A DNA stretch of 47,016 nucleotides from positions 1-47,016 of the forward strand of contig JAQTOP010000018.1 in assembly GCA_028713285.1 (NCBI GenBank). The letters are read 5' to 3'. Within the stretch, counting starts at the first letter, position 1, and each line of letters begins with the position of its first letter. The position numbers were made by a program, and so were the translations under genes. Below are positions 9,763 through 40,015 of the stretch, piece after piece. Source of the DNA: Terrimicrobiaceae bacterium (GTDB taxonomy: Bacteria; Verrucomicrobiota; Verrucomicrobiia; Chthoniobacterales; JAATET01). The notes under the pieces are model-generated. The model worked only from the letters and a program-made list of their open reading frames with translations. It did not search any database and had not been told where the DNA came from.

Positions 9763-9797
9763 GGACGCAAGCCTAACACCGGGCTAGAGTCCTGTCA

Positions 9798-9816
9798 CTC
9801 CGCCTGGGGGCGCAGA
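9798..9816 (-). repeat. dispersed repeat copy, B orientation on plus, one extra G
   Basis: CTCCGCCTGGGGGCGCAGA on the plus strand, the core with one added G. It abuts the stop codon of the minus-strand secreted-protein gene (9817). Confidence 0.75.
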
Positions 9817-10329
9817 TTATCGGCCAGCGCTAACGAGATTAGCCTTGAGATAAGAATTTAGAAACTCTTCAAGAAGTGTATCTAGGATGCCTAGTATAAA
9901 GTTCACGTCCCGGCCGTGGGTTCCGAAGTTCCGGTCACTCCAGACAGTCACGAACTGTTGCCAGACTGTTCCATCGGGCAAGTCCCATTTCGCACTGCGG
10001 TGAAATTCGATATCGGCCTTGAATGCTGCACCTACAATTTCGACCTTAACGAAAAGACACTGCCCAAATCCATCCTTGGGAATCATTCCCGCGCTGCGCA
10101 GTTTCAATTCCGTCCTGGTCTGAACTCGCCCCGTCTGCAACCCTAAGTCATTCTTTGTAACCTCGGCAACTACGAGGCAGAGGTTTTTGGCGTTGTCGAC
10201 TGCAAGTTGCTTTGCCTCGGGCTCCAGTATGTCTTTGAAAACGGCGGCCCAGTCAGTCTTCCCCTGCGCGCGACCATCGCTAAAGCACACAAGAATCGTC
10301 ACGACGGCCGCAATTAAACCACGCTTCAT
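9817..10329 (-). CDS. predicted secreted protein, accessory (moron-like)
   Basis: 170 residues from the ATG at 10329. Residues 1-21 are a signal peptide: a basic start (MKR), a hydrophobic core (GLIAAVVTILVCF) and a likely AQG cleavage site. The mature part is a mixed alpha/beta domain with no recognised family. Lying between the immunity genes and the early operon, with its own orientation, it could be expressed from the prophage and alter the host surface or exclude other phages (inference). Its codon and base use looks less GC-rich than its neighbours. Confidence 0.7.
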   Translation of the reverse strand: MKRGLIAAVVTILVCFSDGRAQGKTDWAAVFKDILEPEAKQLAVDNAKNLCLVVAEVTKNDLGLQTGRVQTRTELKLRSAGMIPKDGFGQCLFVKVEIVGAAFKADIEFHRSAKWDLPDGTVWQQFVTVWSDRNFGTHGRDVNFILGILDTLLEEFLNSYLKANLVSAGR

Positions 10330-12707: not shown

Positions 12708-12980
12708 ATGTTCAAGTCGGGAGACATTCTCGTTGTTCAACCGCAAGATCCCGACGACTGCGAAGCGCTCGCGCATGCCGGCGAGCGCTGCCAGCTCGTG
12801 CGATATGTCGATGTGTACAGCGGTTCGCGCTACGCCATCGTTCGATTTACGACGCAAGGGCGCGGGTTTTATTTCCGCTCGGGGGATCTGGTTTTCGCTC
12901 CGCAGGCTTTGGAACCATCAGCAACAGTCCCGGAGAATGAGACACCGCCTGGGGCGCAGACACAAGAGACACAATCATGA
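12708..12980 (+). CDS. hypothetical protein ending in repeat-encoded PPGAQ
   Basis: 90 residues. The N-terminal domain (MFKSGDILVVQPQDPDDCEA...RYAIVRFTTQGRGFYFRSGDLVFAP) looks like a small beta barrel. The last 15 residues include TPPGAQT, encoded by the dispersed repeat at 12943-12960, so the tail was probably gained from the repeat. The gene overlaps the next start as ATGA. Confidence 0.7.
   Translation: MFKSGDILVVQPQDPDDCEALAHAGERCQLVRYVDVYSGSRYAIVRFTTQGRGFYFRSGDLVFAPQALEPSATVPENETPPGAQTQETQS
12943..12960 (-). repeat. dispersed repeat copy, B orientation on plus, at a gene 3' end
   Basis: CACCGCCTGGGGCGCAGA on the plus strand (one mismatch). Read in frame it encodes PPGAQ, eight residues before the gene's stop. 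Confidence 0.8.
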
Positions 12981-13461: not shown

Positions 13462-13784
13462 CTCGCGACGTCCTTCCCTTCCCCAAGCCTGTCCGTATGA
13501 CCGATCCGAATTACCTTCGCTTCATTCGCCGGCAGCCGTGCTGCGTTTCCGGAACCGCCTCCGAAGCCTCGCACATCGTCCCGGAAGGCTGGGGCAAGAC
13601 CGGCTCGAAAGTATCGGACTATCGCACCGCGCCGATGAACTGGAGACTGCACAAGGAGTATCACCGGATTGGACGGAAGGCCTTTGAAGCAAAATACGCA
13701 ATCGATCTGGACCTGGTTCAACTGCAGTATTTGGAAACCTATATCTCGGCTTTACGGGACGGTGAAGATTTAGGGCAGCGATGA
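13458..13784 (+). CDS. HNH-type nuclease, DUF968/Ref-like
   Basis: 108 residues. The order of motifs (YLRFIRRQPCCVSG, then SEASHI, GSKVSDYRTAP, and WRLHKEYHRIGRKAFEAKYAIDL) matches small phage HNH nucleases of the DUF968 or recombination-enhancing (Ref) type, with the ASH and HKEYH histidines as metal or catalytic residues. Part of the usual zinc-binding cysteine set is missing (VSG in place of CG). The neighbourhood of an AAA ATPase supports a recombination role. Confidence 0.75.
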   Translation: MTRDVLPFPKPVRMTDPNYLRFIRRQPCCVSGTASEASHIVPEGWGKTGSKVSDYRTAPMNWRLHKEYHRIGRKAFEAKYAIDLDLVQLQYLETYISALRDGEDLGQR

Positions 13785-14707: not shown

Positions 14708-14836
14708 GCAAAGAGGCTTTGCCGGATGTGCCTGTTTTATTGATCAAACATCAGCATTTCGTGTACCCCGGTGAGGGCCAAATGGCGGAGACGAAGGCTT
14801 TCCCAGAAGCACCTCCGCCACACCGGATTTGGATGT

Positions 14837-14852
14837 TGCGCCCCAGGCGGAG
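14837..14852 (+). repeat. dispersed repeat copy, A orientation, left end of element
   Basis: TGCGCCCCAGGCGGAG followed by ACGATACGGACTAACCGCGG. With the inverted copy at 15188 it bounds the gene 14902-15228; similarity of the two ends extends for about 40 bp. Confidence 0.8.
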
Positions 14853-14901
14853 ACGATACGGACTAACCGCGGCTGTCTGGGTGACTCAGCGAGGAGGGGC
14901 A

Positions 14902-15228
14902 ATGGAGGACCGCTGGAAGTTTGCGAATCGAATCAGCGATGAAATCGCGGGCGTGCTCAATCGCGAAAAGGACGCCACGGATTTCAGTCCCGTTCAAATG
15001 CTCGCAGGGCAACTCCTCGCGTTGGTGAGCTATCTGCGAACGACCGATGAGATTGACCCCGCGACGATTCCAGCACCCGTGCTGATACTGCGCGCCGCCG
15101 CCGAGACATGCCTCGATGCCATCGTTAAAAGTAAAGTCGGATTAGCGAACCCTGCGAACAACACAGCCACGCAAAGTCCGAATGCCGCTCCGCCTGGGGC
15201 GCGAAATCCAAATCCGAAAGGTAACTAA
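14902..15228 (+). CDS. hypothetical protein bounded by inverted repeats
   Basis: 108 residues from the ATG at 14902, which has GAGGAGG just upstream. The same frame is open back to a GTG at 14704, so a 174-residue form is possible, but that extension runs through a repeat copy. Helical, with LLALVSYLRTTDEIDPATIP in the centre. The last 17 residues (APPGARNPNPKGN) are encoded partly by the repeat at 15188. No known family. Confidence 0.65.
   Translation: MEDRWKFANRISDEIAGVLNREKDATDFSPVQMLAGQLLALVSYLRTTDEIDPATIPAPVLILRAAAETCLDAIVKSKVGLANPANNTATQSPNAAPPGARNPNPKGN
15188..15203 (-). repeat. dispersed repeat copy, B orientation on plus, right end of element
   Basis: CTCCGCCTGGGGCGCG on the plus strand, preceded by GCCACGCAAAGTCCG. 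It is read in frame as PPGAR near the end of the preceding gene. Confidence 0.8.
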
Positions 15229-15823: not shown

Positions 15824-16405
15824 ATGTTCACCCGACCGAATATCCCCACGATTCTCCAGTCCGCCATCCTCGGAAGCGACGGCGAGCGGAAACTGGCTTT
15901 CTGCAAAGTCTCGATTTTCCCGTTCACCTACGATCTCGCGCAAGAGTTGCATCCCGATGTCGCCGACCGGCTCTACCGGCTGAACAAAGGCGGTTCGGGT
16001 TGGAAGAATGGCGAGCGGGAATTTCAGCCGTGCTTGACGATGGACGAGGCGAAATTCGCGCCGATCCTTGCGACCATCCCGCCGCAGCGGATGGAATTCC
16101 GGACGCTGCCGGAAGTTCCAGGCGCGGGCACGGTGATTCCCAACGTGGAGCTCCGGAGCCTGCAGGCCATCCTCAACAAATACTCGCCCGACTTCACGCT
16201 GATGATGGGGTTTCGTTTTGAAATCACGAACCGCTCGACGGCGGCGCTCTATCTGGTCGAGCAGTTTCGCGTGACGAGCTTTCTTACGTTTCAAGCGATG
16301 CAGAAGGGATTGGCGTTGGAGGGTGCTGAGGAAGGCTGGAACGAGCGGAACCAGGTTGGAATGGGACGGAAGGCGGGAGCGACCAATGGAGGAGCGGCCC
16401 GATGA
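15824..16405 (+). CDS. hypothetical protein of early operon
   Basis: 193 residues. AAAGGAG precedes the ATG by about 10 bases. It is a globular mixed protein (ILGSDGERKLAFCKVSIFPF, then FRFEITNRSTAALYLVEQF), with a Gly-rich tail. No family recognised. It overlaps the next gene by ATGA. Confidence 0.7.
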   Translation: MFTRPNIPTILQSAILGSDGERKLAFCKVSIFPFTYDLAQELHPDVADRLYRLNKGGSGWKNGEREFQPCLTMDEAKFAPILATIPPQRMEFRTLPEVPGAGTVIPNVELRSLQAILNKYSPDFTLMMGFRFEITNRSTAALYLVEQFRVTSFLTFQAMQKGLALEGAEEGWNERNQVGMGRKAGATNGGAAR

Positions 16406-16731
16406 GCGCGCACCACGAAAAGATGCAAGAGAGGACCCTCGAACTCTTCCGCTCGCATGAGAAAGAGATGAGAGAAGATGTTGCGTTCACCATGAGGCTT
16501 GCGGACTGGGTGCTCATCCACGGCCACCTGCAGTTGGCATTGCGTCATCCGGAAGCAACGGGCAGGTCCCGGCTGTCGGCCGAGCGGCTGGTTGCAGCCA
16601 TTGAAGCCATTTGCCTCGATAAGGGCGTCTTTGATCGCGAACTCATCGATTACTTGGCGCGGGATCAGGCTACCGTCGAGCAGCAAGCCAGGAAGGGAAA
16701 GGCGGGAGCGAACGGTGTGGATCGGCGGTGA
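16402..16731 (+). CDS. hypothetical helical protein
   Basis: 109 residues, almost fully helical and charged (KMQERTLELFRSHEKEMRED, WVLIHGHLQLALRHPEATGR). Not recognised. A repeat copy follows its stop at 34 bp. Confidence 0.68.
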   Translation: MSAHHEKMQERTLELFRSHEKEMREDVAFTMRLADWVLIHGHLQLALRHPEATGRSRLSAERLVAAIEAICLDKGVFDRELIDYLARDQATVEQQARKGKAGANGVDRR

Positions 16732-16764
16732 GGCGTCCAGACAGCCACGCAAAGTCCGTATCAT

Positions 16765-16781
16765 CTCCGCCTGGGGCGCAA
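16765..16781 (-). repeat. dispersed repeat copy, B orientation on plus
   Basis: CTCCGCCTGGGGCGCAA on the plus strand, preceded by GCCACGCAAAGTCCGTATCA. It lies between plus-strand genes, ending nine bases before the ATG at 16790. Confidence 0.82.
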
Positions 16782-16789
16782 ACACTGGA

Positions 16790-16987: not shown

Positions 16988-17089
16988 AATAGGAAAGTTG
17001 AACAAGCGCGGCTAGGGTCGCTCCTGAAAGCCGGTCTTCCTGCCGGCCGCCGCGCTCACACCAAGGGAACCGCTAAGGAGGCGGAGCCG

Positions 17090-17848: not shown

Positions 17849-19465
17849 CTTCCTGCGCGTGCCGTTTCCGAGGTCCGTGACGCGCAGCGACTGTTTTCCG
17901 GTGAAGTAGTCCGCAAAGCTGCGGATTTCCGGCGGCTGCGGGTTGAGCAAAGCGCCCGCGTTCGATGAGCCCTTACCCACGACGCTGCCCTGGCCGGGAG
18001 TGCCTTGCGGGTATCCCTCTTTCATCAGCGCCGTCCCGGTCGTGACGTTTAACTGATTCGCCCCGGCCGATGGCACAAAGCCGGAGCCATCACCCATCGC
18101 ATACGGTCCTCCCGCGTGTTCCGGCAGTTGCCGTTCCGGGCCGATGATCTTTACCACCTCTGCGAACTTTCCCTTGGAAATCAGGTCGGCGATCTCCATC
18201 TTCACGGCCGCCGACGTCGTGCGCCAGGCGGTCGATTGCATGAAGCGAACCAGCAGTGGGCCCACGACCGCACCGATTGGCCCGCCCAGGACGCCGCCCT
18301 TGGCCGCTCCGATGCCCGCGCCGGTCGCTCCGGAAATCAAATCCTTCATTGAGAGATTCCGGCCAGTCTCGCGCAACGACTTGGCGTTCATCACATCATC
18401 GACGTTCGACCAGAACGTGAATTCGGCGTTGGCTGCTTTGACATCCGGATAAGCTTCCCCAATGTGACGCCGGAATAACGTGGCGACCTGTTTCTGCGCC
18501 GCCACTTGCGATGTGGCCTTGAGGTCTTTGCCGCCAAATCCTGAGGATTCATCGACGACCTGGTCGAGCAACTGCCGGACTTTCCGCATCGATCCCGCTG
18601 AAATCTGATCGCCGAATTGCTCGACCATTCCTTTGAGTTCGCTCAGTTTCTCGACGGCGGCCGGCAGGATCTCGACGTTCTCCGAGGTGAATTCATTCTT
18701 AAGCCGCTCGATCGCCTCGACCAACGGTTGAGCCGGCAGTTTTTCGCCTGCTGGAATTTTCTCCCAGGCGGCGTCAACCGCCTTGCCCGCGGCTGTTTTC
18801 GAAGCGGCGATCTTCGCGCGAAACTCGGTCTCGGTCCATGCGCTAACGCCGCGCTTCGTCAGTTCCGGAATGATTTTATTGGTGATGAACTTCGTTTTTT
18901 CCTTCGTGGGATTCAAGATCCGCTTGTAGTTGCCTTGTGCTGATTTTTCCAAAGCGGGTGCGAGTCGGGACGCTTGATTGGCCAAGTGCGGTGCGCCTTT
19001 AACGATGGCCTCCGGCACCGCTAAGGTGGTAACGGCTTCCGCGGCGGTGCCTGCTGGATCGTTCGGAAAGCGTTCCGCCATATCCGCGAGCCATTGCCCC
19101 ATGATGGGGACCTGGCGCAGCATCGTACCGACCGGGTGATCACTCAAGTGCTGCAATCCCTGCTCGAATTGTGCGTTGGACGCCGGCACGTCGGCGGGTT
19201 GCATCTGAGAATTCGGCTCGTCGGGATTCTCGGCTACCGCCCGGACCAGATTGATCGGGTTGAGATTTTGAAAGCCGCGCTTTACGCCGGCGATGATCCC
19301 GGTCTCTGGCGGAAGGTTCGCCTCAAATGCAGCCTTGGACGCGGCCTGGCGGCTCGCCAGGAGCTCTGGGGATATCTCGCTAGACGGCGCGGCATACTTC
19401 GTCCAGGGTCCCGCTTCGACAGCCGGCGCAGCGTTCTGGTACTTCTCCCACGGTGCTTGAGGCAT
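17834..19465 (-). CDS. putative ejection (internal virion) protein, 543 aa
   Basis: 543 residues, last gene of the late operon. The N-terminus has a WEKY/WTKYA pair of short motifs, the middle is helical, and about residues 375-410 contain a Gly/Ala-rich hydrophobic stretch (ISGATGAGIGAAKGGVLGGP) that could insert in membrane. Three large proteins of this kind in a row at the end of a podoviral late operon match the place of P22 gp7/gp20/gp16 DNA-ejection proteins. No lysozyme motif was seen. Starts in a TAATG overlap with the preceding gene. Confidence 0.62.
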   Translation of the reverse strand: MPQAPWEKYQNAAPAVEAGPWTKYAAPSSEISPELLASRQAASKAAFEANLPPETGIIAGVKRGFQNLNPINLVRAVAENPDEPNSQMQPADVPASNAQFEQGLQHLSDHPVGTMLRQVPIMGQWLADMAERFPNDPAGTAAEAVTTLAVPEAIVKGAPHLANQASRLAPALEKSAQGNYKRILNPTKEKTKFITNKIIPELTKRGVSAWTETEFRAKIAASKTAAGKAVDAAWEKIPAGEKLPAQPLVEAIERLKNEFTSENVEILPAAVEKLSELKGMVEQFGDQISAGSMRKVRQLLDQVVDESSGFGGKDLKATSQVAAQKQVATLFRRHIGEAYPDVKAANAEFTFWSNVDDVMNAKSLRETGRNLSMKDLISGATGAGIGAAKGGVLGGPIGAVVGPLLVRFMQSTAWRTTSAAVKMEIADLISKGKFAEVVKIIGPERQLPEHAGGPYAMGDGSGFVPSAGANQLNVTTGTALMKEGYPQGTPGQGSVVGKGSSNAGALLNPQPPEIRSFADYFTGKQSLRVTDLGNGTRRKSPKK

Positions 19466-20892
19466 TAGTTCTTCTTCTTCCAGCTTTTCGGATCAGCCGG
19501 ATTGCCGCCCATAAACACATGCCCGTCCTGAACGTCGCCGACTTTCGGAGGGGCTGGAGCGCGCGGTTTGGGCGCTGCGCCTGGCGCTGCCGGGCCGGGT
19601 GTGTTCGGTGCTTCATCCTCCCCATACGCTTGCGTATAGGCCCGGCCCGACTCGGTCTTGAAGGTTTTCAACTGTGTGTCGCGGGCTTTCTTTTTCTGCG
19701 CGAGTACGGCCGCATCGTCGCCCGGCTGCGGAAAGTAAATCGAATTGAAGCGGGCATATTCACCGTCGCTGATCGCGGCTCCGGACTCCCGGCGCAACGA
19801 GGCGTTGATAAAATCGTTCTTCGCCTGGTTGTAGCGTTGACCGACGGAAGACTGCATGATGTTCGGCGCGTTGTTCAGCCGGGTCTGGCCGATGATGCCC
19901 ATCTTTGCGATATCGGGCTCTAAGAGGTTAATGGCGTCCAGGGCGCCGTCGACGCGCTCGTAGAAGCCGAGCATTTTCAACTGCGCCGCCGTGGGCGGTT
20001 TCGCATCGCCCGAGCCTTGCAGCCTGAACCATTCCTCGACCGAGCCGTCCGGATGCTGCCGCTGCCAGAGTTTGAACGGGCTGGATGAATCGCCACCACC
20101 CCCGCCGGTCGGCGCTCGGCTGATCTTGAGCCATTGGTCGACGGATTTGCCGGGGTTGTCGGCGTGCCACACTTCAAACGGAGTGTTGGGCGCGGAGGTG
20201 GGCGAGGTCTTTTGGCTGAGATCCAGCCACTCGCCAACGGGCTTGTCGGGATTCTGCTGCTTCCACACTTCAAACGGCGTGTTGGGCTTCTGACCGGCTT
20301 CTGTTGCAAGGTTATGGCGGTTCGCTTCCCCGAGTTCCCGCTGCTTCGGCGATTGCTTCAGGATGCTGTCGCGGATCGCCGCGCGGTCTTCCGGCGTCTG
20401 CGCCGATTGACGCACCTGGTCGTAAGGGAAAGAGGGGTCTCGCGCTTTGATCAGGTTCAGCGCGGATTCGAAGGCTTGCGGGTCGTTGGGGTCGATGCCA
20501 GCGAATAGCGAGCCGGACCAGTCCTGAATTTCCTTGTCGGCGTCGGTGTTCTTTTTTCGGGCGTCTGCTGTGTTCTCGTTCGCCGTTGCTACCGATGCCT
20601 GGTGTTTGTCCCAGTTTTCTTGATAGCTCTGCTTGGTCTTGAGCGAGATCGGCGCTTTCATGATCGCGGCGAAGGTTTCTTCCGGCGAGAGCCCCTGCTG
20701 GAATAGCCCCTTGATGACTTCCTGATCGGCCAGGGCTTGCTTGTCGGCGTCTTGCTTCGCTTGCCCTTCCTGATCGGTGCGTTGAAGGGCGCGCAGGCCG
20801 AGCATTTGCTCCTCGAGCTGAACCGGTTGTAAGGGTCGAGGTGAGCGTTGAGCGAAAGCGCGTAGAGGGATGTTGGAATCGATTTGTGCCAT
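19465..20892 (-). CDS. putative ejection protein with three PFxxW repeats
   Basis: 475 residues. The N-terminal 190 residues are helical and Gln-rich. Three tandem units follow at about residues 206-300: TPFEVWKQQNPDKPVGEWL, TPFEVWHADNPGKSVDQWL and SPFKLWQRQHPDGSVEEWF, joined by Gly/Ser/Pro linkers. A globular domain comes next and the tail is rich in Pro and Ala. Located between two other putative ejection proteins. The W-repeats may bind a partner in the virion; their function is not known to me. Confidence 0.62.
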   Translation of the reverse strand: MAQIDSNIPLRAFAQRSPRPLQPVQLEEQMLGLRALQRTDQEGQAKQDADKQALADQEVIKGLFQQGLSPEETFAAIMKAPISLKTKQSYQENWDKHQASVATANENTADARKKNTDADKEIQDWSGSLFAGIDPNDPQAFESALNLIKARDPSFPYDQVRQSAQTPEDRAAIRDSILKQSPKQRELGEANRHNLATEAGQKPNTPFEVWKQQNPDKPVGEWLDLSQKTSPTSAPNTPFEVWHADNPGKSVDQWLKISRAPTGGGGGDSSSPFKLWQRQHPDGSVEEWFRLQGSGDAKPPTAAQLKMLGFYERVDGALDAINLLEPDIAKMGIIGQTRLNNAPNIMQSSVGQRYNQAKNDFINASLRRESGAAISDGEYARFNSIYFPQPGDDAAVLAQKKKARDTQLKTFKTESGRAYTQAYGEDEAPNTPGPAAPGAAPKPRAPAPPKVGDVQDGHVFMGGNPADPKSWKKKN

Positions 20893-20902: not shown

Positions 20903-20919
20903 TCTGCGCCCCAGCGGAG
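20903..20919 (+). repeat. dispersed repeat copy, A orientation, short form
   Basis: TCTGCGCCCCAGCGGAG, lacking one G. Left end of a 106-bp non-coding element whose right end is at 20994-21008. It lies 10 bp before the start of the 475-residue protein gene. Confidence 0.82.
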
Positions 20920-20993
20920 ACAACGGCGCTTGTGCGTTTCTGTATTCGGGCTTTGCGGTAAGGGAAAGATCAGCAGCGGTTAGTCCGTATGTT

Positions 20994-21008
20994 CTCCGCT
21001 GGGGCGCA
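20994..21008 (-). repeat. dispersed repeat copy, B orientation on plus, short form
   Basis: CTCCGCTGGGGCGCA on the plus strand, preceded by CAGCGGTTAGTCCGTATGTT. Five bases past the copy is the stop codon of the minus-strand gene ending at 21014. Confidence 0.82.
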
Positions 21009-21013
21009 AAATC

Positions 21014-22369
21014 CTAACCATTCCCGCTGAATTCGTCCGGCTGCGGACCGTTGGGGAATTGCGGGTTGTATCCGGATTGATTCTTCTTCTGCTGTTGCTG
21101 GGCGAGGATCTGCTGCAAGGTGACGCCTCCGGTGTTCAACAGGTCCGCCCAATTCGCCGCGTTGCCGGCTTGCGCGTTGGCTTGAGCGTCGGCCGATCCG
21201 GTGATCAAGCTGGTCGTTCCGGCGCCGTAGGCATTGCCGGCCAGGATCGATTGCGAGTTGGCGCGCTCTCCGAATCCCGCCACGGTCGCCAGGCGGTTAA
21301 ACCGCGTGTTTTGATCGTTGGTGAACCGTCCGTAAGCGTTCTGATATTCGTTACTTGCGAACCCTTGTCCGTAGCGTTCCAGGGCTTTTAAGGTGCCTCC
21401 GGAGTGCAGCATGTTGCCGGCTTGGGCTTGCACGCCTTTCAGTCCTTCCGTCATCCGGAAGTCGTAGCCGGGATCTTTGATAAAGTCTTCATTACTAAAG
21501 GTTTTGTTGAGTTCACCGAATCCTATGGCGTTGGGATCGGAGGTGGGATCTCCTGGATTCTGCGCCCCGGGCGGAGTGCCATTTCCGCTTTGCGCTGCTG
21601 GATTTCCGCTCTGCGCGGGGAGCGAGGAAAGCTGCTCCTGCCAGGACGCGACCATCGGATCGAAGTATTTGGCTAGCGTCGCCACACCGCCCGGACCCGC
21701 CCGTCCGAATTCCGCCGCTTTGGCTCCGAAATCCTTCTGCAATCCCTGCACGGTGGAGATCGCCGTTTGTAAATCCTCGTGCGTGAGCGTGCCGTCGGCT
21801 TTCGCCGCGTCGACGGCTTTGGTGATCCGGTCGACTTCGGCGGCCACTTGATTCTGAATCGGCACGAGCGAGTCGGCTTCGTGGCGCCCCTTGCCGAATT
21901 GCGCCGAGAGTGCCCCCACGCCTCCGCCGATGGCAGCACCGACTCCCGCGCCGAGCGGTCCGGCAAATGCGCCGATCCCTGCGCCCGTGGCGGCTCCGGA
22001 GAGCGCGCGGACGCCGGTCGAGTTCAAAGCCGACGGTGCGTTGACGCCGTTGCCGACCGTGCCGCTCATGGGAGAGCTGTAACTGGACGATCCGCCGGTC
22101 GATCCACCGCTGGTTGCGCCGGAAGGTCCGGAGGCAATGCCGAGACCGCGCATGAGCTGCGAGAGACCCGCCTGCCCGGCGTACTGGTAGGGTTGCAAGC
22201 TCTGCTGCTGCTTCGCCCAGATTTGAGCGAGGACCGCCATCGCCTCTTTGGCGCCTGCCGATTGCGTGTCGGCGGCGCCTTGAGCGCCTTTGTTCTGGAT
22301 AACGGTCGTGCCGAGTTGGGTAGCGGCCGGGATTGCGGCGCTGAGGATTTCAGACCAGTTGATTGCCAT
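21014..22369 (-). CDS. putative ejection protein, Gly/Ala-rich, 451 aa
   Basis: 451 residues from the ATG at 22369 (MAINWSEILSAAIPAATQLG); an upstream start at 22420 would include part of the repeat and is less likely. Gly/Ala-rich hydrophobic stretch (GAATGAGIGAFAGPLGAGVG) at about residues 120-150, a helical centre, and a Gln/Asn-rich C-terminus. Similar composition is usual in podoviral DNA-transfer proteins. A repeat copy lies in frame at 21559-21576, encoding TPPGAQN in a linker. The best alternative is another internal virion protein. Confidence 0.62.
   Translation of the reverse strand: MAINWSEILSAAIPAATQLGTTVIQNKGAQGAADTQSAGAKEAMAVLAQIWAKQQQSLQPYQYAGQAGLSQLMRGLGIASGPSGATSGGSTGGSSSYSSPMSGTVGNGVNAPSALNSTGVRALSGAATGAGIGAFAGPLGAGVGAAIGGGVGALSAQFGKGRHEADSLVPIQNQVAAEVDRITKAVDAAKADGTLTHEDLQTAISTVQGLQKDFGAKAAEFGRAGPGGVATLAKYFDPMVASWQEQLSSLPAQSGNPAAQSGNGTPPGAQNPGDPTSDPNAIGFGELNKTFSNEDFIKDPGYDFRMTEGLKGVQAQAGNMLHSGGTLKALERYGQGFASNEYQNAYGRFTNDQNTRFNRLATVAGFGERANSQSILAGNAYGAGTTSLITGSADAQANAQAGNAANWADLLNTGGVTLQQILAQQQQKKNQSGYNPQFPNGPQPDEFSGNG
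21559..21576 (+). repeat. dispersed repeat copy inside a coding sequence
   Basis: TCTGCGCCCCGGGCGGAG on plus, one mismatch to the core. On the minus strand it is read as PPGAQ within a Gly/Pro-rich linker of the 451-residue protein. Confidence 0.78.
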
Positions 22370-22397: not shown

Positions 22398-22415
22398 TCT
22401 GCGCCCCAGGCGGAG
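22398..22415 (+). repeat. dispersed repeat copy, A orientation
   Basis: Exact TCTGCGCCCCAGGCGGAG. Left end of a 123-bp element; lies 28 bp before the minus-strand start at 22369. Confidence 0.85.
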
Positions 22416-22502
22416 ACCACGGCGCTTGAGCGTTTCTGTATTCGGGCTTACCGATCGGTAGGGGCTTTGAAACCAGACAGCCCACTGTCCCGGAGAATGT
22501 CA

Positions 22503-22520
22503 CTCCGCCTGGGGCGCAGA
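22503..22520 (-). repeat. dispersed repeat copy, B orientation on plus
   Basis: Exact CTCCGCCTGGGGCGCAGA on the plus strand. It lies nine bases beyond the stop of the beta-helix gene (22530). Confidence 0.85.
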
Positions 22521-22529: not shown

Positions 22530-23705
22530 TTAGAAAATAAATACTTGAGACCGCGCCGTTGAGGCTGGAGGGACGACAACGCCGTAGCGGTATGCCCCGA
22601 TATCCCACGGAGTACTCCTCACCTGTTGCAAATAGTCTCCGGGGAAGATGCCGGACAGATCCACGCCTGCATTTCGGGCGGCGCTGGACGACTGCAGCGT
22701 GAAGTCCGCTCCCGGTCCATTCGTGAACGCCGGATCGCCCCACAGGTTCGGATCGATGACGGAGTTGGATCCGGCGTTGACGAAATTGCTCGAGTTCAGA
22801 TACCCGATGTTGTTTTTGACAAAAATGCCGTCACCGTTTTGAACCCAGATCCCGATGCCGAGATTGTTGTAAACGGAATTGTTGTAGAACGCGCAATCGA
22901 TCGCGCCGTCGTAGGTCCGCATGCCCCCGGCGCCGCCTCCCGCCCAGGATGCGATCCCGTTTCCATAAACGAGGTTGTTGTACGCCACGTTGTTCGATCC
23001 GCTCGAGAACAGCAGACCGAAGGAACCGTTGTCGTGCAGCTTGCAGCGCCGTACCGTCAGGCGATTGGTGCCCAGGCCCGACTGCGAGAACACATGAATG
23101 CCGTGGCTGTCGGTGTCGTAGACTTCGCAGTCTTCGATGATCGAATCGTCGCAGTGTTCGACGTAAATCGAGTGGCCGTGCGGCGTGAACCCTCCAGGCC
23201 ACGGATAGCCGGTGTGGTAGACCGTCAGCCCGCGCAGCGTCAGGTGATGATTGTCCCCGACGTCCGCCGCGATAAATATCCCGCCCGTGTGGTGGACGAT
23301 CAAATTCGAGAGCAGCAGGTGATGCACGCCCAAGCCGAGCCGCTGCCCGACGCCCAACGCGCCCTCTGCGGTGCCCGCGCCTCCGTCCTGGCCGCCGACG
23401 ATCGTGAGGTTGTCGATCGTCACGTACGCGCAGCTGTGGACCGTCAACGGCTGATCCGCCGTCGCGCCGTCGATCGTGACCGTTTCTCCCGGGTAGCCCG
23501 CAATGACCGTGTGGTTCGCATCGTCGGCGCCGTTCGGCACCGAGCCCGAGATCGCGACGACCGCCTCGTGGTAGGTGCCTCCGCGGATCAGCAGCGTATC
23601 GGCCGAGGACAACAGCGTCTGCCCGGACGCGATATCCCGGCGAGGCGAGCTGATGGTGCCGGCGTTTCCGTTATTGCCGGTGGTCGCGACGTAGTACGTC
23701 GCCAT
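22530..23705 (-). CDS. right-handed beta-helix protein, tailspike or depolymerase candidate
   Basis: 391 residues. It opens MATYYVATTGNNGNAGTISS, then RGGTYHEAVV, a start common to pectate-lyase-like and parallel beta-helix proteins. Many N-, V- and G-rich coils follow (HTVIAGYPGETVTIDG, NNVAYNNLVYGNG, FYNNSVYNNLGIGIW) as in PbH1 repeats. Directly follows the long fibre gene, so it probably forms a receptor-binding or polysaccharide-cutting part. Catalytic residues cannot be assigned by eye. Confidence 0.78.
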   Translation of the reverse strand: MATYYVATTGNNGNAGTISSPRRDIASGQTLLSSADTLLIRGGTYHEAVVAISGSVPNGADDANHTVIAGYPGETVTIDGATADQPLTVHSCAYVTIDNLTIVGGQDGGAGTAEGALGVGQRLGLGVHHLLLSNLIVHHTGGIFIAADVGDNHHLTLRGLTVYHTGYPWPGGFTPHGHSIYVEHCDDSIIEDCEVYDTDSHGIHVFSQSGLGTNRLTVRRCKLHDNGSFGLLFSSGSNNVAYNNLVYGNGIASWAGGGAGGMRTYDGAIDCAFYNNSVYNNLGIGIWVQNGDGIFVKNNIGYLNSSNFVNAGSNSVIDPNLWGDPAFTNGPGADFTLQSSSAARNAGVDLSGIFPGDYLQQVRSTPWDIGAYRYGVVVPPASTARSQVFIF

Positions 23706-26297
23706 CTAGCCGAGCACCGTCAGCACCACCGTGACCCGCTGCACGGTCGATACGGACGAGACGTTGAATCTCAGCGTGTCCCCGGCCGCGATCGCCGTCG
23801 TCCAGCCGACCAGCGTCAAGTCTTGCGATTTGACCGCGGAGGAAATCGTCGGCTTCGCGGAGGCGCAGATCGTATCGGCGACGGTGGGCGGATAGTTCGC
23901 ATAGGTGTCTTTCCAGATGTCGATCGCAATCGAGCCGCTTTGATCCGCGAGCAGCCGCACCGCCGTGATCGTGCAGGCAAACGGGATCGAGAGATCGCCT
24001 TTGATTCCGGTCGAGATGACCGCGCCGCCGCCGTCGATCACAAACGTCAACGCCCGCGTTGCGAGTGACGCCGCGAGTGTGGTCGCGGTCATCGTCAGCC
24101 CCGACCCGATCGTGATTTCCTGCAGATCTCCGGCGCCGCCCGCCGATCCGCGGCCGAGCAGCTTCGAGGCCGCCGAGACCTGCGCGATATTCGCCAGAGG
24201 CAGATCGCCCGTCACTTCCGTCGCGAGATTCACGGCGCCAGCCGTGCCCATGACGCCCGAGGTGATCCGCACGATGCCGGTACCCGCGGCGCGTTTGATG
24301 AGCGCGCCCGTGGTTGCCGAAAACAGCGCAATCTCGCCATCGATGGAGGCGACCGGTCCGGTGACGTTGCCGCCGCCCGCCGGCGTCGCCCAGGTACCAT
24401 CGCCTCGGAGAAATGTTGTGGTGAGCCCGTCGAGCTTCGGCAGCAGACCGTGGAGCGAGGCGGTCGCGTTCAGTGTCGTCACGTCGGTCGGTGCGGCGAG
24501 TTGATCCAGCTTGATCGCATCCGCACCACCGCTTCGGTGCGAGGTCGCATGATTGGCTGGCGCTTGAGCCGCCGCCGCCGCGAGCAAAGCGGTGATCGTG
24601 GTGCCGGAGTTTTTGACGAGTTTGCCGGTCGTCGAATTGAAGATGACGATCGCGTCCGCCGTTGCACTCGCGGGCCCGACCACGTCGCCGGACGTGGCGC
24701 CGGGAGGTGCAACCCACGTCCCATCGGCGCGGAGGTAGGTGGTCGTGCCGCCCGCAAGTTTCGGTAAGAGACCATGCTGCGACGTTGTCGCGTTCAGCGT
24801 CGTGATATCGGTGGGCGCGGCAAATTCGTCCAGCTTGATCGGATCGGCGCCGCCGCTCTTGTGCCGCGTCGCGTGCGTTGCCGGTGCAGCCGCCGCAGCG
24901 GTCGCGAGAACCTGTGCGATGGTTTGGCCGGAGTCCTGGATCAGCTTGCCCGTCGTCGAGTTGAAGGTGACGATATCGTTATTGACGGAAGACGCCGCAC
25001 CCAGGACATCTCCGGATCCGGCGCCCGTCGGTCCGGTGGCTCCGGTCGCTCCCGTGGCTCCCGTGGCGCCAGTGGCCCCTGTCGCGCCCGCGGCGCCCGT
25101 GGCCCCTGCCGGCCCTGTCGGCCCGACTCCGCCGGGCGCCCATGTTCCATCGGCGCGGAGGAAGTCGGTCGTGCCGCCGCCCAGCTTCGGGAGAAGGCCG
25201 TGCGCCAACGTCGTGGCGTTGAGCGTGGTGACGTCCGTTGTCGCGGCGAGCTCATCGAGTTTGATCGGGTCCGAGCCGCCGGATTTGTGACTCGTCGCGT
25301 GCGCGGCCAGCACGAGCGTGGTCGTGGACATCGTCAGCCCGGCGCCGATCGTGATTTCCTGCAGATCTCCGGCGCCGCCCGCCGATCCGCGGCCGAGCAG
25401 CTTCGAGGCCGCCGAGACCTGCGCGATATTCGCCAGAGGCAGATCGCCCGTCACTTCAGAAGCGAGAGCGACCGGGCCCGGCGTTCCATAGACCCCCGAG
25501 GTGACGCGGACAATCCCGGTACCGGTGGCGCGCTTGATGACCTTGCCGGTGGTCGAGGAAAAGAGCGCCACCTCGGAATCCACGCTCGAGGCCTGTCCCG
25601 CGACATCGCCGGCGCCCGGCGGCGTGGTCCAGGCGCCCGTGCCATCCAAGAAGTGCGCGGCGTTGTTGTCGAGTTTCTTCAAGAGGCCGTGTGCGGAAGT
25701 CGTGGCGTTGAGGGTCGTGACGTCGGTCGTGGCCGCCAACTCATCGAGCTTGATCGCGTCGCCGCCGCCCGATTTGTGCGAGGTGGCATGCGTTGCCGGA
25801 GGCGCCGCGGCCGCGGTCGCTAAAACCTGGGCGATCGTGTTTCCCGAATCCTTAATGAGCTTGCCGGTCGTGGAGTCAAAAACGACGATGTCGTTATTCA
25901 CGGCAGAAGCCGCACCGAGCACATCGCCGGATCCGGCCCCCGTGGGCCCGGTGGCGCCTGTGGCTCCAGTGGCTCCTGTGGCTCCTGTGGCGCCTGCCGG
26001 TCCGGTGGCGCCCGTGCCCCCTGCCGCTCCTGTTGCTCCCGCAGCCCCCGTGGCTCCAGCAGGTCCAACGGCGCCCGCCGCCCCCGCGTTACCCGTGGCG
26101 CCTTGCGGTCCTTGCGCGCCCGTGGCGCCAGCCGTTCCGCCGCCACCGCCGAGCGCATAGGAGCTCCAAGCGGAGCCGTTCGATTGCTCGACGATCGAGC
26201 CCTCATCGGTGACCGAATAGAGCGCGCCTGGCGAGACGGCGGAGGCCAGCGGTTGAGCACTGCGTGTGCCGATGAGTAAAACTTCAGCAATTTTCAT
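23706..26297 (-). CDS. collagen-like tail fibre with repeated modules
   Basis: 863 residues. A short head ([17 protein letters not shown]...[20 protein letters not shown]) is followed by a Gly-X-Y collagen-like stretch at about 50-118 and a second one near 390-430. Four copies of an approximately 60-residue module carry [27 protein letters not shown] and HGLLPKLDG, plus FLRGDGTW. Two copies of a [20 protein letters not shown] unit are encoded by a perfect 113-bp direct repeat. The C-terminal domain is beta-rich. It is a trimeric fibre by analogy, probably for host adsorption. Confidence 0.85.
24106..24218. repeat. 113-bp perfect direct repeat in fibre gene, copy 1
   Basis: Identical to 25345-25457 (offset 1239). 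Flanking sequence differs, as do the third codon positions of the other modules, so this part was recently duplicated or homogenised. Confidence 0.9.
25345..25457. repeat. 113-bp perfect direct repeat in fibre gene, copy 2
   Basis: Identical to 24106-24218. Recombination between the two copies would delete 1239 bp, an exact 413 codons, and keep the fibre in frame. Confidence 0.9.
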
Positions 26298-26310
26298 TTT
26301 TGTTTTTCTG

Positions 26311-26328
26311 TCTGCGCCCCAGGCGGGG
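26311..26328 (+). repeat. dispersed repeat copy, A orientation, left end of cassette
   Basis: TCTGCGCCCCAGGCGGGG, one mismatch. It lies 13 bp before the fibre gene start (26297) and, with the copy at 26705, bounds a one-gene cassette. Confidence 0.83.
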
Positions 26329-26355
26329 TTACAGTGCGGCTAACCGGAGGCGGTG

Positions 26356-26727
26356 ATGTTCGACGACAAGTACCGACGCGACGGAACGAAGTACCCGCCG
26401 GGCATGGAAGGGGTGCTCGAATGGGGGCGCGACTTCGAGGACCGTGAAAAGAAGATCGTGCGCCAGGACGAGTTGCCCAACGGCTATTGGGTCTCGACGG
26501 TGTGGATTGGCATCAATTACCGTTACGGCGATGGCCCGCCGCTCATTTTCGAGACGATGGTGTTCGACTCCAGGAACGGGGACGCGGCCGACTACCAGGA
26601 ACGATACTCAACCGAAGACGACGCGATCATCGGACACCTGAAGGCCGTCGACCACTTCGCCACGTACGCAAAGTCCGAATCCAGCAACGGTCAGTCCGCA
26701 TGTTCTCCGCCTGGGGCGCAGATCTAA
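26356..26727 (+). CDS. hypothetical protein carried by repeat-bounded cassette
   Basis: 123 residues from the ATG at 26356, with GGAGG five bases upstream. It is globular and acidic (MFDDKYRRDGTKYPPGMEGV, VSTVWIGINYRYGDGPPLIF). I have a sense of small phage proteins of this kind but cannot name a family. The last residues (NGQSACSPPGAQI) are encoded by the right-hand repeat. It is on the strand opposite to its neighbours, consistent with independent acquisition. Confidence 0.75.
   Translation: MFDDKYRRDGTKYPPGMEGVLEWGRDFEDREKKIVRQDELPNGYWVSTVWIGINYRYGDGPPLIFETMVFDSRNGDAADYQERYSTEDDAIIGHLKAVDHFATYAKSESSNGQSACSPPGAQI
26705..26722 (-). repeat. dispersed repeat copy, B orientation on plus, right end of cassette
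   Basis: Exact CTCCGCCTGGGGCGCAGA on the plus strand, preceded by AACGGTCAGTCCGCATGTT. It encodes PPGAQ at the end of the cassette gene and abuts the stop of the convergent gene 26724. Confidence 0.87.
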
Positions 26728-26951
26728 GTCAGCGGTCGAAAGGCCATCAACACCTCACCATTCGCAAAAATAATCTCCGGATCGTCGACGTCCCCGTTGA
26801 CGAGCGGCTCCCAGACGCCAGCACTCCGCGTGTCGACCGTCTCTAGAAGCGATCCCACATCCGCGAAGTATCGGGTCCAGACGACCGACTCGTTCACCTT
26901 CGTGCCGTTGGCATCGATCGGAATTGGCGCTTTGACAGGTGCATCTGGCAT
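26724..26951 (-). CDS. small structural protein candidate
   Basis: 75 residues (MPDAPVKAPIPIDANGTKVN), with an extended N-terminus and one likely beta domain. Starts in an ATG overlap at 26951 with the preceding gene. Small proteins of this kind are common next to podoviral stabilisation genes; function unknown. Confidence 0.65.
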   Translation of the reverse strand: MPDAPVKAPIPIDANGTKVNESVVWTRYFADVGSLLETVDTRSAGVWEPLVNGDVDDPEIIFANGEVLMAFRPLT

Positions 26952-27343
26952 TAGTGACGTCCTCCAGTGAGATCGATAAACAAATCGATCCAGACCTGCT
27001 TGATCGGCTCCGTACAGACCAGCTCGAAGATGCGCGTGCGGCAGCGCGGCGACGACAGCCGATTCAGCACGGCCCGCCGCTGATACTCGCCCTGCTTGCC
27101 CATCGACACCCAGCGTTCGTTCGACCAGGTGTGCCCGCCATCGTCGGAATGCCTGACCATGAGTTTCGGATCGCTGCCCTGCCCTGTCGCCAGCCCGCCG
27201 CCGGCCTCGAGGAGTACTTCCAGCCTCGAGAAGAAGAGACGCAGTCCCTGAATCGAGATTTCCGGTGTACGACGGACGCGGCGGATCAGACAGCCGTCAT
27301 CGTCATAGAAGTCGATGGAGGATTCGTAAATGAGGCCTTCCAT
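26951..27343 (-). CDS. detached C-terminal module of gp10-like stabilisation protein
   Basis: 130 residues. The stretch LMVRHSDDGGHTWSNERWVS, then GEYQRRAVLNRLSSPRCRTRIFELVCTEPIK, resembles the C-terminal end of many podoviral packaged-DNA stabilisation proteins (WSDDGG-TW motif and LG-ARDR-F-like segment), from family memory. The gp10-like protein upstream (27382-29622) lacks this region and ends in other domains. The gene may therefore be a split-off part of the tail hub. Confidence 0.6.
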   Translation of the reverse strand: MEGLIYESSIDFYDDDGCLIRRVRRTPEISIQGLRLFFSRLEVLLEAGGGLATGQGSDPKLMVRHSDDGGHTWSNERWVSMGKQGEYQRRAVLNRLSSPRCRTRIFELVCTEPIKQVWIDLFIDLTGGRH

Positions 27344-27381: not shown

Positions 27382-29622
27382 CTACACTCCCAGCTCGCAG
27401 CCGTGCCAGTCGTACCAGAACATCGTGTAGCCGTAATCCCCGGTGATGGTGAGGTCGGTGATCGCAATGCCGGCGCGGCCCGTCAAGAGCGCCCCATGCG
27501 CCGCCCCGGCTGCTTCGGGATCCTCATAGTCGAAGATTTCGGTCCAGCCGTCGCCGAGACCCCAATCGATATAGCCCTTCAAGCACACGACGGTCGTGCC
27601 GGCGTAAGGCCCGGAGGTCGGCATGTAGTTCATGGCGGTCAATTTGAGTTTTTCGCCGCCCTGGAATTGAGCGATCTGGCCCGTGAACGCGAGACGGAAC
27701 AAGTAGCCGCCTGCCTCATTCCGGTCGAGGAGCACCTCGCTTGCCAGCCATTCGTTCCCGCCGACATCGTGTTTCGTTTCGATATAGCTCAACGCATAGA
27801 AGCTCGCGTTGGCGATGGCGCTCGTCCCGACCCCGACCTGCTGGATGCGTAGTGCGACCCCGGCCATCGTCGAGAGCTCGCCCGCGTGCGTCGAATGGCT
27901 CACGGCCACTTCGGAGTGGTCGAAGGTCATCTCCGACGAGCAGCCCGGAGCCGCCGGATCGAGAGCGGTGTAGGCGGCGACGCGCGGATAGGCTTGATGG
28001 TCGGCGGTCGCCTGCGCGGGCGGCTGCCGCTCGCTGATCAGCACATTGTCGAAGATCGAGAAGGCGTTGTAGTTTGAGCCGCCGGGATCGATCACGCCGC
28101 CCCATTGGGTCCACGCCGCGCCGATGTCCGAGGAATCCGCGCGCCCCTGCATCGAGTCGTCGAAGCATTCCACCTCGACCAAGGTCTCCGGACAGGTTGC
28201 CGAGAGCGTCTCCTCCGTCACGGTGATCTGGCAGGTCGCTTCATCCGTCAAGGGCGGTACGCTCGAATCGGTGACGCCGACGGTAAACGAAAACACGCCA
28301 TCCTCGGTCGGCGTGCCGGTCAATGTCCCGTCGCTGCCAAACGTCAGCCCCTCGGGGAATGCGCCGGAAATCAGCGCCCAGGTGTAGGGCGGCAGACCGC
28401 CCGCGGCCTCGAAGGTCACATCGTAGGCGGTGTCCACCTCGCCATCGTCGATCGGGCAGGTCGTTGTGATCACGAGCGTTCCGCCCGATCCCGGCCCGAC
28501 CCCGTCCCCTTCCGAATCCACGCAGCAATCGCCGCCGCGGTCCCCGACCAGATGCTTACCAAACGCGAACGCATGCGACCAGGCGTGATCCGCGTCGAAT
28601 TCCGTCCCGGCCCAGCAGCCGCGCTCGTGCCATTTCCCGTTACTTGCGTCATAAACGAGCGTGTTCCGCCCGAGCGGAAACGTGAAGACCACGAAGGTGT
28701 GGCCGTTTTCGACATATGCGTAGCCGCGGCAGTCGTAAATCGCCGGCATCTTCCGCATCAACTGCTCGATCGCATGCGTCGAGATCCGCTTGCCCGCGTA
28801 ACCCGCCGCCCGCCAGGCGATCGCCCGTCCCCGCTCATCCCCGCCAATCCAGAAGATCGTGTTGTCGGCTTTCGTGGGAGACGCCGGAGCCGCGCAGCCG
28901 GTCTCGATCAAGGCACCCGGTATCGCGGCATACGGGTTATCCGGATTTTCCGTCGTCGAGGCAAACGGCTGCACCGACTGATCACCGAACGCCCAGAGCT
29001 GCTCGTGATCGGCGAGGAGCGCGACGACGTTATCCGGCATCAAATCGGCGGAGAAGAAATTGAGCGCCGGCCAGGAGTTGCCATCGTCCAGATCCGAGTA
29101 AAAGATGCGCTGCCGGAAGTCGACGGACACAAACGTCGCGACAAAGCGATTCGCCAGCGAGACGACGTTGATCGGGGTAATTTCATCGCCGTTGTCGTCG
29201 AGGATCGGTCCGGAGAAGTCGTTCGTTGCCAGATCGAACAGGTAGCCGAGCTGCAGCGACGTGATGACCAGCTGCGTGCCGTTCGAGGCGATATAGGCCG
29301 GAAAGCCGTCGCTTGAGACCGAGCCGCGCTCGATCGAGGTGCCGTCGTCGAAGATTTCATAGAACTTGGCGCCGGAGACGGCAAAGGTACGGTCCACTGC
29401 CGGAAATTGGTAGGTCTCCGTATGCTGGGCGCGGATCGGCCCCTCGGCGAGCCGTGCGAAGACTTTCCGGCCCGGCGTGCCCAAGAGGACCAGGCGCTCG
29501 GGATTTTCGCCATGACCTGTCTCCACAATTTCCGGATAAAGATTGATCAGGCGCGAGGCTTCGACGTTCGGCGAAAAGCTGGGGTATGTTTGATCGGAGA
29601 AGCCGCTAAATCGTTTTTTCAC
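27382..29622 (-). CDS. P22 gp10-like DNA stabilisation protein with added C-terminal domains
   Basis: 746 residues from a GTG at 29622. Residues 1-370 match the phage stabilisation family: SFSPNVEASRLINLYPEIVE, LLGTPGRKVF, FYEIFDDGTS, NRFVATFVSVDFRQRIFYSDLDDG, QLWAFGDQSVQPF, RISTHAIEQLMRKM. In P22, gp10 closes the portal after packaging and forms the tail hub. Residues about 385-470 look like an Ig-like He_PIG domain (DTAYDVTFEAAGGLPPYTWAL, GTLTGTPTEDG). The last 270 residues look like a lectin- or laminin-like beta domain. The usual C-terminal module seems to be the separate next gene. Confidence 0.82.
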   Translation of the reverse strand: MKKRFSGFSDQTYPSFSPNVEASRLINLYPEIVETGHGENPERLVLLGTPGRKVFARLAEGPIRAQHTETYQFPAVDRTFAVSGAKFYEIFDDGTSIERGSVSSDGFPAYIASNGTQLVITSLQLGYLFDLATNDFSGPILDDNGDEITPINVVSLANRFVATFVSVDFRQRIFYSDLDDGNSWPALNFFSADLMPDNVVALLADHEQLWAFGDQSVQPFASTTENPDNPYAAIPGALIETGCAAPASPTKADNTIFWIGGDERGRAIAWRAAGYAGKRISTHAIEQLMRKMPAIYDCRGYAYVENGHTFVVFTFPLGRNTLVYDASNGKWHERGCWAGTEFDADHAWSHAFAFGKHLVGDRGGDCCVDSEGDGVGPGSGGTLVITTTCPIDDGEVDTAYDVTFEAAGGLPPYTWALISGAFPEGLTFGSDGTLTGTPTEDGVFSFTVGVTDSSVPPLTDEATCQITVTEETLSATCPETLVEVECFDDSMQGRADSSDIGAAWTQWGGVIDPGGSNYNAFSIFDNVLISERQPPAQATADHQAYPRVAAYTALDPAAPGCSSEMTFDHSEVAVSHSTHAGELSTMAGVALRIQQVGVGTSAIANASFYALSYIETKHDVGGNEWLASEVLLDRNEAGGYLFRLAFTGQIAQFQGGEKLKLTAMNYMPTSGPYAGTTVVCLKGYIDWGLGDGWTEIFDYEDPEAAGAAHGALLTGRAGIAITDLTITGDYGYTMFWYDWHGCELGV

Positions 29623-36565: not shown

Positions 36566-36861
36566 TATTTACGCACCCTGCGGATTTCGACGAGCCGCCC
36601 GACCGGCTCCACCGTGCAGACAAAGGAATTCTTGGGACACAGGTAGGCGAGCGCTTCCTGTTCGCCTCGCGCGTTGCGGATCGCGACCAGATACACGTCG
36701 GGCGAGACCTGGCGCGCGGACCAGCGCTCCGCTTCGATCACGGGAGGCGCGGCAGTCCGTCGCAGCGGACCCACGCAGGACGCGAGCGCGCACAGTCCGA
36801 ATACAGCCACGCACAAGAGCCATTGCCTCCGCTGGGGCGCAGATCTAAAGCTTCTAACCAT
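36565..36861 (-). CDS. predicted lipoprotein
   Basis: 98 residues from the ATG at 36861, overlapping the previous gene by a few bases. A basic n-region, a hydrophobic core (WLLCVAVFGLCALA) and the lipobox LASC make a type II signal peptide. The basic n-region (SAPQRR) is itself encoded by a dispersed repeat copy (36827-36843). A TTG start just after the repeat, with the repeat's GGAGG as ribosome site, is another option. Possible roles: outer-membrane spanin-like protein or exclusion lipoprotein. No partner spanin was recognised. Confidence 0.68.
   Translation of the reverse strand: MVRSFRSAPQRRQWLLCVAVFGLCALASCVGPLRRTAAPPVIEAERWSARQVSPDVYLVAIRNARGEQEALAYLCPKNSFVCTVEPVGRLVEIRRVRK
36827..36843 (-). 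repeat. dispersed repeat copy, B orientation on plus, in lipoprotein leader
   Basis: CTCCGCTGGGGCGCAGA on the plus strand, the short form. Preceding sequence CCGAATACAGCCACGCACAA matches the flank of copies at 20903 and 22398. Read on the gene strand it gives SAPQRR. Confidence 0.82.
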
Positions 36862-37216
36862 TCGCTCTATACCCCAATGCACTCACCGTAACCGTCGTCA
36901 CCGAGTCTTCACACGCAAAGGCGAAGACCTGATTCGCATTGCACGGTAAAGGCGGATCCATACGGATCACACAGCCGCCCTTCCCCCCAGGAGCGGGAAT
37001 CGGCCCCCAGATCGTCGTCGTGCCGCTTTTCAAGAGCACGCCCGTCCCGGTGGTCGCGTGCGCGTTGTAAATCACGAGCGTCGTGATCATCAAGGCAAGA
37101 CCCGCCCCAGGCGCGGCAATGACGGTATGGTCGGCGGTATCGGTGGACGAGGCGAGACCCCGCAGCGGCGCATGCGGATTCGATGGCTTCGCCGCGGAGT
37201 AATCGTTCCCAGGCAT
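36854..37216 (-). CDS. small beta-rich structural protein
   Basis: 120 residues (DHTVIAAPGAGLALMITTLV, GVLLKSGTTTIWGPIPAPGG, VTTVTVSALGYRANG). It resembles small phage proteins with a jelly-roll-like beta sandwich. Head or tail decoration is a guess. Joined by a TAATG overlap to the upstream gene. Confidence 0.7.
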   Translation of the reverse strand: MPGNDYSAAKPSNPHAPLRGLASSTDTADHTVIAAPGAGLALMITTLVIYNAHATTGTGVLLKSGTTTIWGPIPAPGGKGGCVIRMDPPLPCNANQVFAFACEDSVTTVTVSALGYRANG

Positions 37217-39358: not shown

Positions 39359-40015
39359 ATGGCTAAACGAAAGATACAACGAGACCAGATTATCGGTAAG
39401 GTCTATGGACGCTTGACCGTCCTCGATGAAGCGAAACCGCAGCGGATCATCACCTGGCTACGGCGTTTCGTGGTTCAGTGCTCCTGTGGGAATCAGAGCA
39501 TCATTCCCCTTCGAGACCTTCGCAACAACCACACGCAATCCTGCGGCTGTTATCGCGTGGACTTGATGCGGCTGCGAGACGTCACGCACGGAATGAGAGA
39601 CACCCCGGAATACGACGTCTGGTCCAACATGAAGAGACGGTGCGCCAATCATTCGACGGCGACCCATGCCGCACACTACGCAGGACGGGGCATCACGGTC
39701 TGCGCGCGCTGGCTCGAATCCTTCGAGAATTTCATCGAGGACATGGGGAGGCGCCCGACCGATCAGCACAGCCTGGAGAGGCTGAACAACGACGGCAATT
39801 ATGAAAAGGATAATTGCGCGTGGACGACGATGAAGGTGCAGTGCCGGAACCGCCGCTCCAACCATCGGCTCACCTATAACGGCGAAACCCTAAGCATTGC
39901 GGAATGGTCGGAGCGCATCGGCTTCACGCGCTCCACCATATTTGATCGACTGAAAAGAGGATGGAGCGTCGAGAAGATTCTCACGACGCCCCAGCGGAAA
40001 AACCAATACGGTTAA
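39359..40015 (+). CDS. HNH homing-type endonuclease
   Basis: 218 residues from the ATG at 39359 with GGAG 10 bases upstream. N-terminal Cys pairs (VQCSCGNQ, QSCGCYR) make a zinc ribbon. The central block (YDVWSNMKRRCANHSTATHA, GRGITVCARW, SLERLNNDGNYEKDNCAWTT) is the signature of a phage HNH/AP2-type family. The C-terminus (GETLSIAEWSERIGFTRSTI) is a NUMOD-like HTH. It lies alone on the plus strand between the capsid cement gene and a structural gene, as free-standing homing endonucleases do. Confidence 0.88.
   Translation: MAKRKIQRDQIIGKVYGRLTVLDEAKPQRIITWLRRFVVQCSCGNQSIIPLRDLRNNHTQSCGCYRVDLMRLRDVTHGMRDTPEYDVWSNMKRRCANHSTATHAAHYAGRGITVCARWLESFENFIEDMGRRPTDQHSLERLNNDGNYEKDNCAWTTMKVQCRNRRSNHRLTYNGETLSIAEWSERIGFTRSTIFDRLKRGWSVEKILTTPQRKNQYG

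Follow-up and report, generated by a model that had tools for sequence, protein, structure and literature searches.

Genomic context of the locus

The DNA analysed here (the window, 47,016 nucleotides) is a phage contig, C31, within a 3.53-Mb assembly binned as a bacterial genome. Both contig ends (1-127 and 46890-47016) carry an identical 127 bp, probably because the assembly of a circular molecule overlaps itself, and because of this identity the contig is probably complete and circularly closed. Early and lysogeny genes occupy approximately 1-17.8 kb, and the minus-strand genes at approximately 17.8 to 46.9 kb include some with structural products, namely those for the tail fibre, head closure Hc3 and DNA ejection. 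The gene under study, ORF 26356-26727(+), is, as the initial annotation stated, a plus-strand gene within this minus-strand operon, and its neighbours are minus-strand structural genes (Table 1).

A second plus-strand ORF in the late operon, at 39593-40015 (140 aa), has neither repeat arms nor a Pfam match. Homology to Hc3 is divided between two ORFs, with 27382-29622 corresponding to profile positions 9-349 and 26951-27343 to positions 351-472; the former has an added Ig-like He_PIG domain, and in the related phage G098 both parts match a single 483-aa frame region. The tail-fibre gene contains long internal repeats at 24074-25797 (300 nt at 82%, and a 170-nt unit present four times) as well as two collagen-like tracts. 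In the early region, a DUF968 family protein encoded at 13497-13784 is matched in both relative phages too, and 17005-17067 resembles int-alpA RNA (RF02996) with 34.9 bits, slightly below the gathering score of 35.8.

Table 1. Repeat copies and principal genes of the phage contig
Feature	Position	Strand	Context	Score or detail
Degenerate copy	802-857	+	inside terminase small subunit 339-926(-)	nhmmer E 4.6e-4
Single copy	4422-4486	+	end of ORF 4480-4794(-)	nhmmer E 5.7e-17
Tyrosine integrase	6573-7760		early/lysogeny region	
Single copy	8508-8571	+	just beyond HTH repressor-like gene 8585-8866(-)	nhmmer E 1.1e-12
Cro/C1-type HTH, repressor-like	8585-8866	-	early/lysogeny region	
Repeat fragment	9792-9818			nhmmer E 0.0013
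Phage AAA_24 ATPase, possible recombination protein	11491-12705	+		PF13479 E 3.7e-8
Single copy	12899-12967	-	within 3' end of ORF 12708-12980(+), frame ..PPGAQ..	nhmmer E 4.2e-12
Second cassette	14827-15228	+	around ORF 14902-15228	arms 14827-14892 and 15154-15213
Single copy	16721-16787	-	end of ORF 16402-16731(+)	nhmmer E 4.9e-15
Empty facing pair	20903-21010		gap between 21014-22369(-) and 19465-20892(-)	fold z -6.9 / -5.3
Weaker copy	21554-21610	+	inside DNA-ejection-like gene 21014-22369(-)	nhmmer E 3.6e-8
Empty facing pair	22398-22520		gap between 22530-23705(-) and 21014-22369(-)	18-bp perfect stem; fold z -4.5 / -5.4
Tail fibre gene	23706-26297	-	left neighbour of ORF 26356-26727	
Left repeat arm	26303-26352	+	between divergent starts of tail-fibre gene and ORF 26356-26727	core 26311-26326; nhmmer E 8.7e-11 (26303-26373) and 4.9e-8 (26310-26352)
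Right repeat arm	26662-26729	-	3' end of ORF 26356-26727	core 26707-26722; nhmmer E 2.9e-18
Head-closure Hc3 genes	26951-27343 and 27382-29622	-	right of ORF 26356-26727	
Single copy	36790-36850	-	after stop of 36854-37216(-)	nhmmer E 1.0e-12

The inverted repeat pair and the enclosed gene

The sequence TCTGCGCCCCAGGCGG at 26311-26326 recurs as its exact reverse complement at 26707-26722 (16-nt arms, 100% complementary), with 380 nt separating the two. If small gaps are allowed, the ends of 26311-26722 remain similar to approximately 37-40 nt, in line with the 37 bp first described. The ORF can start at GTG 26353 or ATG 26356, and its TAA stop (26725-26727) lies two bases beyond the right core, also as first described. 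The initial annotation placed the gene exactly between inverted copies of the repeat; the exact arms do bound the ORF, but the full right arm (26729-26662) lies inside it. This arm, which matches the copy at 4429 at 98% over 44 nt, encodes the final ~20 aa of the protein and also overlaps the stop codon of 26724-26951(-).

The product is a 123-aa protein with a conserved phage-protein core at residues 5-103 (to nt 26664). Alignment with the best homologue stops at residue 103 (nt 26664), and the right arm begins at 26662. In the AlphaFold model, pLDDT is 82-97 per block over residues 1-100 and 58-60 in the tail. The protein has no Pfam, PHROG or NCBIfam match and no PDB fold match (best E 0.19), and its BFVD matches are uncharacterised phage proteins only. 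Homologues were found at 27 loci in IMG/VR and in nine records by tblastn against 50,697 phage records (E 0.1), with invariant residues that include S47, T48, IFETMVFD at 64-71, G93 and H94. By sequence similarity, the ORF is a member of a widespread, uncharacterised phage family. It is single-copy in the host assembly, and among 384 genomes of the host class, one other has a homologue (43%).

The best homologue (53%) is found in G098, a related phage whose capsid and portal proteins are 66% and 46% identical to those encoded here. In that phage, the gene occupies 1753-2121(+), away from the late genes on the minus strand. The view that the gene has moved or been acquired is supported because G098 carries it elsewhere, among small plus-strand ORFs. 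Neither of the two relatives found has the tail-fibre gene at 23706 that borders the junction. Empty hairpins are present at other junctions of this genome. The insertion event itself we infer, because no close relative with both occupied and empty versions of one junction was found.

The initial annotation went further, and proposed that gene and repeats form a single transferable module, possibly resembling a MITE. However, inverted repeats of at least 12 nt were sought around all 27 IMG/VR homologues, including that in G098, and none is flanked by them; this is an outcome that the initial annotation had named as refuting the module. Conversely, the repeat occurs in this phage mostly away from ORF 26356-26727, with nine of the 11 other strong copies occurring singly or in empty pairs. 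The unit thus fails the initial annotation's own check of a transferable module, because the gene exists without the repeats and the repeats without the gene. An independently mobile single-gene module is not supported; the gene has the appearance of an ordinary passenger, not of part of a self-contained mobile unit.

A miniature mobile element of the MITE or MPME type, in which the whole 412-bp unit and its ORF were moved by a transposase supplied in trans, can nonetheless be considered. MPME1 and MPME2 are ultra-small mobile elements, one and the same unit being found at many sites and accompanied by a 6-bp addition (PMC3029335, PMC4351075). The locus resembles them in its size (~0.4 kb), 123-residue ORF and terminal inverted repeats (PMC3029335, PMC4351075), and fits the published description of ~440 bp with a 123-residue ORF (PMC4351075); a second ORF-bearing pair is present at 14835-15205. 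However, the ORF here is single-copy, its homologues lack the ends, the ends are scattered through the genome independently of it, and the other arm pairs are empty or hold a different ORF, the ORFs in the two ORF-bearing pairs being unrelated. The protein had no mycobacteriophage match among the 50,697 phage records (E 0.1). No transposase linked to the repeats was found. Nor is there target-site duplication beyond chance: only 4-nt matches occur, at two of four pairs (with 6 nt slack) and not at 26311-26722, and 52% of random positions do equally well. The match in size and in the 123-residue ORF is, as far as tested, apparently a coincidence, and movement as a miniature element is improbable. 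The locus was also compared with integron gene cassettes: no attC core sites (RYYYAAC / GTTRRRY) were found in the 13 arms and their flanks (40-100 nt), and the phage integrase, the only one compared, scored 15.5 bits against integrase_gron, for which the cut-off is 265.

A family of dispersed repeats

The repeat unit consists of an 18-bp core, TCTGCGCCCCAGGCGGAG, and a 30-45-bp mosaic tail. The 16-mer has 15 matches in the contig at up to three mismatches, versus 1.26 expected. A profile search (nhmmer) returned 13 strong copies at E <=9e-11, plus two to three weaker ones; the profile was made from the same 13 copies, and their E-values are therefore not independent, whereas the 16-mer word count is. 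A 14-mer counted in both orientations has nine copies here and a maximum of three among 49 other phage sequences. Beyond this contig, the 16-mer has no match at 0-1 mismatch in the host assembly, and the repeat is absent from 96 genomes related to the host and from the two related phages with similar late genes. The exact repeat was not found in IMG/VR, a looser pattern run against genome-contig and viral-contig collections yielded nothing beyond chance matches, and an Rfam search found no family at the repeat arms. Across the collections searched, the family is private to this phage, with ~15 copies.

This distribution bears on a possible origin in the host. In REPINs, REP doublets in inverted orientation form hairpins and are tied to a RAYT transposase (PMC3116915). 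The repeats described here share with them a short palindromic core, the occurrence of singlets and inverted hairpin doublets, and an intergenic bias (PMC3116915); four facing pairs are present, and two that are empty have folding z-scores of -4.5 to -6.9. It might be supposed, then, that a RAYT-type HUH transposase of the host, whose assembly contains four Y1_Tnp matches, has spread the arms as REP sequences. However, no arm is located near any of these four loci, some copies lie in coding regions and two doublets enclose an ORF, and the repeat is confined to one phage with no linked RAYT gene. Mobilisation by the host is thus very improbable.

Facing pairs and their possible functions

Four pairs of copies lie within 420 bp of one another, and all four are facing, with the core ends outward (P 4.5e-5 to 1.8e-4 for random placement, and ~0.005 if orientation alone is shuffled). 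Two are nearly empty (20903-21010 and 22398-22520) and form 108-123-bp hairpin elements between consecutive late genes, as judged by RNA folding of each pair against shuffled sequences (z in Table 1). The other two each contain one ORF (26311-26722 and 14835-15205). The ORF of the second cassette has no match in the phage collection, and its C-terminus reads through the right arm (..PPGAR..). In both ORF-bearing pairs, the ORF begins shortly past the left arm and continues across the right arm, in a frame common to the two. The initial annotation's single ORF between inverted repeats, lacking its own recombinase, is supported, with a second example in the same phage, and the cassette-like architecture, which occurs twice in the genome, is supported as real and non-random.

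Two details bear on whether paired arms change together. The same G is missing from both arms of 20903-21010 (CAGCGG instead of CAGGCGG), and in the 14835/15205 pair the inverted match reaches 11 nt further outward. These could reflect concerted change by template switching, or chance; the shared G deletion may be chance because it recurs in a third copy (36843). The pairs may have arisen differently from the single copies, and facing arms could permit inversion of the enclosed gene.

A regulatory role for the arms also fits, because eight of them are positioned 9-116 nt upstream of a start codon (distances for the copies at 12960, 16782 and 20903 were read off the sequence); most others directly follow a stop. 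It may be that the arms act as operators, terminators or start-associated repeats that serve their neighbours, with the ORF simply happening to sit between two such arms. Stable stem-loops formed by the paired arms are consistent with this, and there are comparable phage systems. In cluster K mycobacteriophages, the SAS is a 13-bp start-linked motif in one orientation, approximately half of which have 17-bp inverted repeats (PMC3203893); like the SAS and ESAS, the present repeats are phage-private and near translation starts (PMC3203893), but they also occur after stops and in coding sequence, and in both orientations relative to transcription. The PeSL of T4-type phages, as summarised in PMC4503421 (citing Arbiol 2010, Comeau 2014), are repeated intergenic stem-loop cassettes with an early promoter, proposed to drive gene shuffling. 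The likeness, on that summary, lies in repeated stem-loop elements between genes; the difference is that no promoter was recognised in the arms here in a sigma-70-like search, although that consensus may not be the host's. With the same reservation, sigma-70-like promoters are not in excess in the region (2 versus 1.5 expected). Against a regulatory role, too, are the copies within coding sequence and the occurrence of arms in both orientations relative to transcription. No T tract follows the long stems, and the arms are missing from related phages whose late genes are similar. A regulatory explanation is, on balance, unlikely.

Mosaic copies and in-frame coding copies

Beyond the core, individual copies share sub-blocks with different partners. 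The copy at 12960 has CATTCTCCGGGAC in common with that at 22520 and GTTGCTGATGGTTCC with that at 8515; the copy at 16782 contains blocks common to 4429 and to 15205; and the copy at 26722 shares 18 nt with 4429 and 15 nt, at a shifted position, with 15205. Among random pairs of the same size, one in 1995 has 11 nt in common. Because these sub-blocks match different partners, the pattern indicates that the copies recombined with each other.

Five copies lie in coding sequence (ORFs 26356-26727, 14902-15228, 12708-12980, 21014-22369 and 339-926), and all five use one frame, (P)PGA(Q/R), a motif found in the predicted proteome only at the repeats. By inspection, the 18-nt core is stop-free in all six frames, and the common reading frame is therefore not forced by the core. 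The copy at 21554-21610 reads ..GNGTPPGAQNPG.. in frame and lies in a linker just ahead of the conserved part of its gene, and that at 802-857 reads ..AAPAGAQK.. in the variable N-terminus of the terminase small subunit; both copies fall outside the parts conserved in relatives.

Rickettsia palindromic elements likewise occur within ORFs, where they are translated in frame (PMC10969869), and the present copies can be likened to them by description (PMC10969869), but these are shorter, phage-borne and mostly at gene ends and junctions. Cluster O mycobacteriophages carry symmetric 17-bp dyad repeats in more than 30 copies genome-wide, both intergenic and coding, and gene gain and loss there has been ascribed to recombination between repeats (PMC4351075). 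The dispersal through a phage genome, in intergenic and coding positions, is similar (PMC4351075); however, the unit here is longer and asymmetric, and pairs into facing arms. The repeats are best called a variant of phage dispersed repeats.

A model for placement of the gene

The explanation that we favour, with confidence somewhat better than even, is that these are phage-private, REPIN- or RPE-like hairpin repeats that occupy gene junctions and are shuffled by recombination, and that an accessory gene was caught between two of them. It builds on what is observed: the repeat family and its mosaic copies, facing pairs with the potential to form hairpins, in-frame read-through of the repeat, and homologues that lack it. 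In this model, repeats occupying gene junctions, often head-to-head as 108-123-bp hairpin elements, would serve as islands of homology at which recombination or template switching would shuffle the tails of the copies. The same process would have brought the accessory gene between two arms in the late operon, leaving the C-terminal end of the ORF composed of repeat-encoded residues. The AAA_24 ATPase at 11491-12705, which has a PHROG 1366 match, a weak UvsX-like match and 68% identity to its counterpart in G098, might be a candidate helper in recombination between repeats. The repeats may be tolerated because they do no harm, whether they lie in untranslated stretches or supply a protein with a flexible PPGAQ tail.

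A more elaborate version, which we consider improbable, is that the hairpin element is a standard docking frame for single genes, supplying a 5' junction and a translated PPGAQ 3' end, spreading within the phage, and letting the gene held between its facing arms flip from early to late transcription or back.

A long-standing question is how phages come to carry individual accessory genes between the conserved genes of an operon, and junction-marking repeats are among the few visible traces of accessory-gene gain. Here, a single phage genome shows empty, occupied, single and in-frame coding copies, so that the steps can be compared within it.
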